From Marinihelvus fidelis (lineage in GTDB: Bacteria; Pseudomonadota; Gammaproteobacteria; Xanthomonadales; SZUA-36): 64,000 nt of DNA. Below, piece by piece: positions 61,160-64,000 of the stretch. Location: contig NZ_VYXP01000005.1 of NCBI RefSeq assembly GCF_008725655.1, positions 124,001 to 188,000 on the forward strand, given 5' to 3'. The position numbers and the translations under genes are program-made. Positions within the stretch are counted from its first letter, which is position 1; every line of letters starts with the position of its first letter. The notes under the pieces were generated by a model that had not been told where the DNA came from, did not search any database, and was given only the letters and a program-made list of their open reading frames with translations.

Positions 61160-62092
61160 ATGAGCGATACGCTGAAAGTCTGGTTTAACGGCGCCCTGCG
61201 CGACCTCGAAGAATGCAATGTCAGCATTCGATCCCACGCCCTGCATTACGGCTCCTCCGTGTTCGAGGGCGTCCGCGTGTATCGCACCCATCGCGGCCCC
61301 TGCGCATTCCGCCTGAACGACCACCTGAAACGCTTCTTCTGGTCGGCCAGCATCTATCGCATCCCCATGAAGTATTCGTTCGAGGCGATTCACGAAGCCT
61401 GCATGGCCACTGTACGCGCCAATGGTTACGAGTCCGCATACCTGCGGCCGGTCGCGTTTCGCGGCGACTGCGGCCTGGGCGTGATGCCGGGTGACATGAA
61501 CGTGGTCGAGACCGCCATCATTCCCGCCGAATGGGGCACATACCTGGGTGAAGGTGTGCTCGAGCGCGGCGTCGAGGTCTGCGTCAGCTCGTGGCAACGC
61601 GTGGCGCCCAACACCATCCCTGCCGGCGCCAAGGCGGGCGGCAACTACCTGTCCAGCTTCCTGATCGTCACCGAGGCGAAGGACCGCGGGTTCACCGAGG
61701 GCATCGCCCTGGGCGCCGACGGCCTGGTCAGTGAGGGTTCCGGCGAGAACGTGTTTGTCATCAACGACGGCCGAATCCTGACGCCGCCGGTATCCGCCTC
61801 GATCCTGGGCGGCATCACCCGCGACACGGCCATCAAGCTGGCGCGCAAGCTGGGCTATGAGCTGGTCGAGCAGTCCATCTCCCGCGAGCAGCTGTACGCC
61901 GCCGACGAGATTTTCTTTACCGGCACCGCCGTGGAGATCACCCCCGTACGCAAGGTCGACCACCTGCTGATCGGTGACGGCACCCGCGGCCCGGTCACGA
62001 CCGCGGTACAGGACGCCTTCTTCGGCCTGTTCGACGGCCGTACCGAGGATGAGTGGGGCTGGCTGGAGCCGGTCGGCAGCAACGCCGACTGA
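61160..62092 (+). CDS. ilvE: Branched-chain amino acid aminotransferase IlvE
   Basis: A 310-residue class IV PLP aminotransferase. KVWFNGALRDLEECNVSIRS, HYGSSVFEGVR, NTIPAGAKAGGNYLSS with the PLP Lys, SEGSGENVFVI and EIFFTGTAVEITPV are all typical of IlvE. It carries out the last step of Val, Leu and Ile synthesis. The ATG at 61160 fits the family start. Confidence 0.95.
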   Translation: MSDTLKVWFNGALRDLEECNVSIRSHALHYGSSVFEGVRVYRTHRGPCAFRLNDHLKRFFWSASIYRIPMKYSFEAIHEACMATVRANGYESAYLRPVAFRGDCGLGVMPGDMNVVETAIIPAEWGTYLGEGVLERGVEVCVSSWQRVAPNTIPAGAKAGGNYLSSFLIVTEAKDRGFTEGIALGADGLVSEGSGENVFVINDGRILTPPVSASILGGITRDTAIKLARKLGYELVEQSISREQLYAADEIFFTGTAVEITPVRKVDHLLIGDGTRGPVTTAVQDAFFGLFDGRTEDEWGWLEPVGSNAD

Positions 62093-62110: not shown

Positions 62111-62138
62111 CCCCGGCTGACAATTTTTGTCACCGGGG
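62111..62138. promoter_or_regulatory. Long inverted repeat upstream of the sigma54 promoter
   Basis: CCCCGG and TGACA pair with TGTCA and CCGGGG around ATTTT-type centre (62111-62138). It may be a weak end of ilvE (no U-run) or an enhancer site; it stands about 105 bases before the -24 element. TGTC (62128-62131), 10 bases, CACA is one mismatch from the TGTC-N10-GACA pattern of GlrR/QseF sites. Confidence 0.4.
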
Positions 62139-62242
62139 CAACACAAAACGGCAACTTTCCGGTTTTCCGCGCACCAACCGCCCCTGCCCCAAAATGGCGC
62201 ATCGCCCTGTTTTAGCACGTTTTTAGCCCTAACCACGCATTG

Positions 62243-62258
62243 TGGCACACTTATTGCT
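62243..62258 (+). promoter_or_regulatory. Near-consensus sigma54 promoter of an RNA candidate
   Basis: TGGCACACTTATTGCT agrees with the RpoN consensus TGGCAC-N5-TTGC, with GG and GC exactly 10 bases apart. No protein-coding gene on the plus strand follows it; a structured stretch and a terminator do. The predicted start of transcription is about 62269. Confidence 0.8.
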
Positions 62259-62268
62259 TTAAACCTAT

Positions 62269-62639
62269 CCGCTAGGCACCGAAGCCTGACCAACGACAGG
62301 CAACGGTACTTAAAAGCTGAAGGGAAGAGGCTGTTTCCCGTAAACACGGCTCCTTGGTTGCTGAGCCCGCCACGCAGGCTATCCGCTGGTCTGCAGGCAC
62401 ACGGGATAAAACAAACATCTTGTCTGTGGAAAGGAATCCGCAAGTCAGTAACGCGGAAGCAGAGAAGGGGTAGCCACCCGACAGTCGCCCCGAATTTTGG
62501 TTTTAGCTTGGGGGAAGTCGAGGTCGGACGGTAAGGGGATCGTCTGTAGATCACGGCCTAGGGGAAACGTGGAGTGAGATGCCAGTCGTAACTCCACGAT
62601 TTGGAAAAGACCCGCGGATGCCGGGTCTTTTCTTTTTTT
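62269..62639 (+). ncRNA. Candidate sigma54-dependent structured RNA, ~370 nt
   Basis: A gene-free stretch bounded by a sigma54 promoter and a strong terminator. Stable local hairpins are 62284-62301 (GCCTG/CAGGC), 62322-62339 (GGGAA/TTCCC), 62348-62367 (GGCTC/GAGCC), 62425-62442 (TGTGGA/TCCGCA, loop AAGGAA), 62521-62559 (AGGTCG/CGGCCT closing GACGGT/ATCGTC, loop AAGGGG) and 62568-62598 (CGTGGAGT/ACTCCACG). GGA occurs twelve times, some in loops, as in CsrA/RsmA-sequestering RNAs, but less densely than in CsrB. It is not RNase P, tmRNA, 6S or SRP RNA as far as I can recognise. Confidence 0.65.
62605..62639 (+). terminator. Strong Rho-independent terminator
   Basis: A perfect 10-bp stem, AAAAGACCCG (62605-62614) with CGGGTCTTTT (62622-62631), seven-base loop, followed by CTTTTTTT. 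It ends the RNA candidate. Confidence 0.9.
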
Positions 62640-63345: not shown

Positions 63346-64000
63346 TCAGTCACCCTGGTAGTCGGTGATGATGTAACCGCCGGATTTGGGGTCGTGCTCC
63401 ATCTTCAGCAGCTTGCGCTTCTCCATTTCCTGCAGCAGGTCGCTGAATGAACGAAAGCCGTGGTAGCTCTCGCTGAACGAAGGCTTACGGCGTTTCAGCG
63501 CCTGCTTGACCATCGAGCCCCAGACATTGGACTCCTCGCCACGCTCGCTGACCAGGTCATCGATGGTCTCCAGCACCTGGTCGAAGGCTTCCTGTGCGCG
63601 CTCCTCCGCGGGCTTGCCGCCACCGGACTTGCCGCCACCGTTGCCCGCGGCCCTGGCCTCGCCGGCGTCCTTCTTCGATGCCGATTTCTTCTTCGGCTTG
63701 CGGCGCTCGGCCTTGCGGACGATGTCCTCGTAGAAAATGAACTCGTCGCAATTGGAAATCAGCAGGTCAGACGTCGAACCCTTCACGCCAATGCCGATGA
63801 CCAGCTTGTTGTTCTCGCGCAGCTTGGAGACCAGCGGCGAGAAATCCGAGTCGCCGGAAATGATCACGAAGGTATCGACGTGCTCCTTTGTGTAACACAG
63901 GTCCAGCGCGTCGACGACCATGCGGATATCGGCCGAATTCTTGCCCGACATGCGCCGGTGCGGGATGTCGATCAACTCGAACGACGCCTCGTGCATGTCG
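63346..64000 (-). CDS. NYN-domain (LabA-like) protein with C-terminal OST-HTH, truncated by window edge
   Basis: The visible 218 codons are the C-terminal part of a NYN/PIN-like RNase-fold protein. Conserved acidic residues are in SADIRMVVDALDL and IISGDSDFSPLV. A Lys/Gly-rich linker (about 50 residues) leads to a winged-helix OST-HTH/LOTUS-type end (FSESYHGFRSFSDLL, then LKME). The family usually has some 60 more residues with the first Asp before this point, and the frame is open to the window end, so the start lies outside. RNA cleavage or binding is inferred from the fold. Confidence 0.82.
   Translation of the reverse strand, partial: DMHEASFELIDIPHRRMSGKNSADIRMVVDALDLCYTKEHVDTFVIISGDSDFSPLVSKLRENNKLVIGIGVKGSTSDLLISNCDEFIFYEDIVRKAERRKPKKKSASKKDAGEARAAGNGGGKSGGGKPAEERAQEAFDQVLETIDDLVSERGEESNVWGSMVKQALKRRKPSFSESYHGFRSFSDLLQEMEKRKLLKMEHDPKSGGYIITDYQGD

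Follow-up and report, generated by a model that had tools for sequence, protein, structure and literature searches.

A sigma54-promoted structured RNA family downstream of ilvE in Lysobacterales: a candidate CsrA sponge sharing its enhancer with pilA

The known Csr/Rsm sponges (CsrB, CsrC, RsmX, RsmY, and RsmZ) are stand-alone structured RNAs that have a terminator and carry GGA motifs in hairpin loops. They occur in multiple copies in some genomes, drift fast in sequence, accompany CsrA in their hosts, and are under GacA/UvrY control. RNAs of this kind are usually found through homology or through GGA density. RsmU of Xanthomonas, from the same order as the organism studied here, binds RsmA with 3–4 GGA motifs and has no Rfam family; it is processed from the 3' untranslated region of the comEA mRNA, occurs in Xanthomonas only, and is described without mention of a sigma54 promoter (PMC7694677). 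The newly described Csr RNAs Pf1, Pf2, and Pf3 of Pseudoalteromonas were recognized via GGA motifs, promoter, and terminator, and contain 9–25 GGA each, sigma54 being mentioned for flagellar genes only (PMC11882849). CrcZ and CrcY of Pseudomonas are sigma54-dependent decoy RNAs with a two-component activator, CbrB, and with Hfq-Crc rather than CsrA as their target (PMC8657755). GlmY and GlmZ of Enterobacteria are sigma54 RNAs with an enhancer for the response regulator QseF/GlrR (PMC6075780) that form a pair of base-pairing RNA and RapZ decoy (PMC7073468). In searches of the open literature, we found no sigma54- or PilR-driven CsrA sponge.

The RNA described here resembles the Csr/Rsm sponges in all of the traits named above except their control and their motif density. 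It has a sigma54 promoter with a putative PilR-type enhancer, a GGA density at the level of chance, few canonical sites per RNA, and a core of GGGG loops. It is like RsmU in its order, its few GGA motifs, and its lack of an Rfam family, and like CrcZ/CrcY and GlmY/GlmZ in its sigma factor and its probable response-regulator type of control, whereas its activator and motifs differ from those of CrcZ/CrcY and it has no Rfam match that would join it to GlmY/GlmZ. By motif placement it would be classed as a Csr/Rsm-type sponge, and by homology it lies outside every known Csr/Rsm family.

The window, a 64,000-nucleotide stretch of the Marinihelvus fidelis genome, carries towards its 3' end ilvE (61160–62092, plus strand; branched-chain amino acid aminotransferase; NCBIfam TIGR01122 and NF005146, both above cut-off), then an intergenic stretch, and then an opposite-strand ORF without a family match and an NYN-domain gene truncated at the window end (63346–63999, minus strand; Pfam PF01936, E = 6e-25). 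An ilvE orthologue is the upstream neighbor of the RNA in most of its family, and NYN-like sequence also lies downstream of four homologous loci (L003, L005, L008, and L034). The intergenic stretch contains a sigma54 −24/−12 promoter, TGGCACACTTATTGCT (62243–62258, plus strand), which matches the consensus exactly, with 10 bases separating GG and GC as the original prediction had it. The match by itself we rejected as evidence, since 2.7 sites with at most one mismatch are expected in 64 kb; the promoter is convincing because 31 homologous loci retain it. With its start inferred from the −12 box and its end from the terminator, the RNA is about 370 nt in length (62269–62639, plus strand). The rho-independent terminator (62603–62639, plus strand), with loop CGGATGC and a T-run tail, is near-identical in four genera, and a scan gives it 12 pairs where 10 bp had been noted before. 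It is extremely unlikely that the RNA is simply the 3' untranslated region or the terminator of ilvE, its promoter having arisen by chance: ilvE is indeed on the same strand, 150 nt upstream, but promoter and enhancer stand at fixed spacing in 29–31 loci, and the dispersed copies L178, L183, L184, and L185 also retain the sigma54 promoter.

The RNA is strongly structured, as had been proposed, with a fold of −144 kcal/mol compared with −125 kcal/mol in shuffles (z = −3.3; 0 of 100 shuffles as stable). The antisense strand folds nearly equally well (z = −2.95), so the strand is not set by folding energy, and hairpin energy was discarded as proof of it; the strand is fixed by the promoter, the terminator, and covariation. 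On the plus strand, the window copy has a 5' hairpin in its minimum free energy fold (GCCTG/CAGGC, 62284–62301); a hairpin GGCTC/GAGCC with loop CTTGGTTGCT (62348–62367), seen in the genus alignment and strongly conserved within the genus; a CsrA/RsmE-type hairpin (62425–62442); the conserved core (62505–62563); and a penultimate hairpin, CGTGGAGT/ACTCCACG (62568–62598). The stem of this last hairpin is replaced through compensatory changes in relatives from the window's genus, being GTGCGATG/CATCGCAC in G002 and GTGTGGTGT/ACGCCGCAC in G005.

The RNA is single-copy in its own genome, and the description of it as an orphan did not hold up. It has 31 relatives, which with few exceptions follow ilvE, along with paralogs, across one apparently uncultivated family of metagenome genomes whose assignment to the order Lysobacterales comes from some record titles and from genome kinship. 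The 31 RNAs were extracted, complete copies being 157–432 nt in length. The congener G001 has a full-length homologue (81% identical), and several other relatives share little beyond the terminator by plain similarity. Such a search fails because only the promoter, the terminator, and the motif set are retained downstream of ilvE in the family while the remainder turns over. The 23-base heart of the terminator is shared without change by several genera of the family and occurs in only six records among 84,980 species genomes; all six are assemblies from metagenomes, with titles naming Lysobacterales, Chromatiales, Oceanospirillales, or no more than Gammaproteobacteria, and the family search had already covered these genomes. 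A search of Rfam gave no match, in agreement with the expectation that the RNA lies outside known families; rsmX came up only at 14.3 bits (E 3.5), far under its gathering score of 56, and membership of a known Rfam family, known Csr/Rsm families included, was rejected on this basis. An origin from phages or plasmids was likewise rejected, as collections of both contained no match for the RNA.

Three genomes of genus g9 (G028, G034, and G061) have a tandem second copy directly behind the first, and in G034 the minimal duplicated version, at 155 nt, is barely more than the core. Two paralogs, L224 (G034) and L226 (G035), have the CsrA-type hairpin, the core, and the terminator, and no recognizable sigma54 promoter or enhancer. 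In G031, copies of the RNA core occur at four contig ends (C16, C25, C50, and C70), which suggests repeated copies that broke the assembly.

The core of the window copy consists of a GCTTGGGGG motif (hairpin 1), hairpin 2 (stem GGTC/GATC, with AAGGGGA in the loop), and a CTAGGGGA linker; it includes the nested domain first noted at 62521–62559, which is real and forms part of the best conserved region. In its recurring form, hairpin 1 is GCTTG-GGGGA-CAAGC, and hairpin 2 has a GATC/GATC-type stem with AGGGG in the loop and often a further AGGGG directly after the hairpin. Orthologues have compensatory changes in the core. In alignments that were hand-trimmed to the core and from which the structure itself was read, and which are therefore biased toward structure, 96.6% of cells pair in genus g9, with five pairs changed on both sides (0 of 500 shuffles match); g4–g7, g12, and g13 together have four such pairs (5 of 500 shuffles get there); and hairpin 2 has, over all clades, three double-change pairs, amounting to seven cells (0 of 500 shuffles for the cell count).

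A covariance model of the core, R1, was built from 22 sequences including the window copy, which scores 31.5 bits (62505–62563; G000:C5:186505-186563). The model recovered one member outside its training set, in G007, which on inspection has the enhancer, promoter, 5' domain, core, and terminator. Searched with stricter filters, 300 genomes from the order and 369 from the class gave marginal matches only (E above 1e-4) outside the family. R1 overlooks several true members (those of G002, G005, G006, G008, and G014), and therefore the lack of matches elsewhere is no proof of absence.

The most constant and best conserved motif, GGGG in loops, is left unexplained by the CsrA model. Over the 31 RNAs, AGGGG occurs 56 times (29 expected) and RGGGGA 52 times (17 expected). 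The GGGG-loop core might accordingly be the main working part of a PilR/sigma54-driven RNA, binding some protein or a C-rich RNA, with the CsrA sites accessory and lineage-specific. We consider this rather unlikely. It would agree with these counts, with the conservation of the core structure in every clade that R1 reached, with the small margin by which the minimal G034 version exceeds the core, and with the g14 copy in G024, which has GGGG loops and almost no ANGGA. It would also agree with a 5' loop, CCCCUCUUUGCCCAAUC, in g4–g7 and g12, whose CCCCU and CCCAA are complementary to AGGGG and UUGGG and may pair with them internally. The GGGG, however, often extends to GGGGA, which is compatible with weak CsrA sites, and the paralogs L183 and L184 keep an ANGGAN hairpin and lack the core.

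Evidence for a CsrA sponge comes from the placement of GGA motifs rather than from their number. The window RNA has the twelve GGA motifs counted in the original prediction, but just one (62433–62435) is fully exposed in the predicted ensemble, with a second mostly exposed in the terminator loop (62616–62618) and a third partly so in the loop of hairpin 2 (62537–62539); most of the twelve are predicted to be paired. The 31 RNAs together contain 256 GGA against 257 expected, a density at chance that falls short of the Csr/Rsm mark, and GGA density was dropped as an argument for a sponge. NMR work has defined the high-affinity CsrA/RsmE site as an ANGGAX hexaloop that sits immediately on a stem (PMC4005645). 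The exposed GGA of the window copy, with an unpaired probability of 0.99, sits in such a hairpin, TGTGGA[AAGGAA]TCCGCA (62425–62442), which is present in all four genus members that have the RNA, with loops AAGGAA, AAGGAC, or AAGGAT. When ANGGAN loops on at least three Watson-Crick pairs were counted, 18 of the 31 RNAs were found to have 23 such hairpins in all, compared with 1.5 expected and a maximum of 5 in 300 shuffles; loops with permuted letters had no comparable enrichment. Eight loci beyond this set have 7 ANGGAN hairpins (0.29 expected), and CANGGANG occurs 29 times (4.8 expected). The stems vary under a constant loop, being TGTGGA/TCCGCA in the window and TTAGAAC/GTTCTAA, TTTTGTC/GACAAAA, or GGAAGC/GCTTCC elsewhere. 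Many of the hairpins are homologous by descent, which reduces the independent cases to about eight kinds.

An ANGGAN hexaloop hairpin is lacking in the remaining 13 of the 31, among them the g14 and g10 copies, and the window copy has one canonical CsrA-type site and one or two weaker ones (terminator loop and hairpin 2 loop). A sponge with so few sites would be weaker than CsrB, but three or four GGA motifs are enough for RsmU to bind RsmA. The tandem duplications fit a sponge that acts by dosage. CsrA is encoded in 31 of 39 genomes of the family (21 of 22 when good genomes alone are counted), and the csrA copy of the window's own genome is canonical. The paralog L178 (G061:C53:18100-18960, minus strand), which is on a different contig from the ilvE copy of G061, has the same enhancer and promoter, 21 GGA in 550 nt, and three ANGGAN hairpins.

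Nucleotide similarity aside, none of the ORFs in the RNA is conserved in the genus of the window, in keeping with the original view that the promoter does not lead to a protein gene. A frame of 65–67 codons that runs through the core and ends in ...ARPHISLKARMLGGQAKTIMRLGGSMR is shared by g5, g6, g7, and g12 (loci L048, L036, L046, L052, L049, L068, and L070). The transcript could thus be, or derive from, a small-protein mRNA on which CsrA represses translation at the start codon, and several traits of the frame are of the kind expected for this: a GGAG ribosome site, length differences that are divisible by three, an excess of third-position changes (581 versus 454 and 376), and an ATG that, where retained, is inside the CsrA-type hexaloop. 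The ATG, though, is absent in g5 and g12, the frame is broken in two g6 genomes, and no such frame occurs in g1 (the window's genus), g9, g14, or g2; between codon pairs, non-synonymous differences outnumber synonymous ones (689 versus 183), and a Pfam search of the frame gave no match. As an account of the family this is very unlikely. Three or four genera have the CsrA-type hairpin positioned on an apparent ORF start as in a CsrA-repressed mRNA, and the g5/g6/g7/g12 clade may additionally make a CsrA-controlled small protein.

Upstream of the promoter is an inverted repeat, TGACAATTTTTGTCA (62118–62132), that we propose as a PilR site; weaker half-sites (GCAAC and CGGCAAC) follow downstream as far as about 62155. 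Its palindrome, TGACAANNNTTGTCA, has one exact copy in the 3.43 Mb of the genome, at the RNA locus. The pattern TGAC-N7-GTCA occurs 121–125 nt upstream of the −24 box in 29 of the 31 homologues (0.007 expected in shuffles, with spacings of 118–128 nt counted). The same pattern is 97–109 nt upstream of the −24 box at 15 pilin genes of the family, and the arrangement recurs at a pilin gene, L193, from a different family within the order. Three further sites with one mismatch exist in the window's own genome, one of which has a sigma54 promoter 100 nt below it, that of the type IV pilin gene pilA. The pilA cluster also contains pilB, pilC, pilD, and, with other ORFs in between, genes for a sensor kinase and for a sigma54-type response regulator, which position and domains, rather than a subfamily-specific model, identify as putative PilS and PilR. 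Xylella fastidiosa belongs to the same order; its pilA1 is the chief sigma54-dependent gene, with activation attributed to PilR (PMC3224663). From the gene neighborhood and the shared site, PilR is very probably the activator of the RNA.

TGTC-type half-sites are known for several sigma54 activators, GlrR among them. Another activator of this kind (NtrC, GlrR, or similar) could drive the RNA, with the link to pili incidental, and the recurrence of these half-sites among activators leaves room for this, as does a difference in Pseudomonas aeruginosa, whose PilR sites are described as NifA-like TGT-N11-AGA and GTCT elements that are not identical to the TGAC-N7-GTCA palindrome (PMC6058289). The palindrome is, however, common to the pilin promoters of the family and to the pilin gene of another family, and an activator other than PilR is distinctly unlikely. 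GlrR in particular was dropped once the enhancer was found at pilA. Between enhancer and promoter, a perfect IHF site is present in 5 of the 31 loci (1.7% expected). When 300 genomes of the order were searched with a composite pattern of enhancer and promoter, 97 had matches, whereas a reversed control gave about a dozen; many of the matches outside the family look like chance.

In the window, the enhancer palindrome is nested inside a longer inverted repeat, GCCCCGG...CCGGGGC (62111–62140), the outer part of which is not conserved in the homologues read. In genus g8, L188 (G012) and L189 (G022) have a pilus-type enhancer and a sigma54 promoter ahead of a small protein gene whose products, MNSEMNLLSSEITHLRDALRN... 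and MNTELSLMAAEVTFLRDTLRQ..., are conserved between both genomes. Enhancer and sigma54 promoter also precede genes for apparently secreted proteins at L180 and L181 (G023), possible further PilR targets.

A separate conserved structured intergenic element, GTTCGCACCGG...GTAC...GCTTGGGGGACAAGCAAGGTAC...CCGGTGCGAG, was encountered at L233, L236, and L237 (G013, G034, and G035), where an Rfam search gave no match. It lies next to a threonine-synthase-like gene, with an mtnA-like gene also adjacent in G034 and G035 (both named by eye), and is probably the leader of the threonine-synthase-like gene, read from the other strand.

The sigma54 promoter retained in 31 loci, the fold, the terminator, and the covariation of the core bear out the original proposal of a sigma54-driven, stand-alone, structured RNA. 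Of the outcomes that it had listed as contrary to it, neither a lack of covariation nor an Rfam match was observed. The link to PilR and pilA goes beyond that proposal. Its hint at a CsrA/RsmA sponge is also favored, through the placement of ANGGAN loops (23 versus 1.5) and not through the GGA count, which is that of chance. We lean towards a PilR/sigma54-driven Csr-type sponge as the identity of the RNA, a reading we hold to be somewhat probable on the sequence evidence. The csrA, pilS, and pilR genes and the enhancer shared with pilA are observed in the sequence; the production of the RNA, its activation by PilR, its contact with CsrA, and its physiological output are inferred. The type IV pilus response regulator, PilR, would bind at 62118–62132 and have sigma54 RNA polymerase transcribe the RNA. 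The transcript would fold as a row of hairpins, and at least one of them (62425–62442) would display the ANGGAN hexaloop, the form best bound by CsrA/RsmA, and the RNA would titrate CsrA off mRNAs. PilS/PilR would in this way switch on pilA and lift CsrA control together.

More tentatively, and somewhat short of probable, the family as a whole may be a class of CsrA-titrating RNAs whose synthesis PilS/PilR directs through sigma54, replacing the usual GacS/GacA-type control and coupling the state of the pilus to global translation control, with the GGGG-loop core as an additional conserved part. Homology and GGA density, the usual routes to Csr sponges, both fail for this RNA, which was found through its shared enhancer and the placement of its hexaloops. 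If the proposed reading is true, a direct transcriptional wire would run from type IV pilus sensing by PilS/PilR to the Csr system, a link for which the papers searched gave no example, tying pilus sensing to a cell-wide switch in lifestyle through CsrA, a global regulator of translation. The RNA would then offer a ready candidate for the control of CsrA in a part of the Lysobacterales that has no catalogued RNA of this kind.
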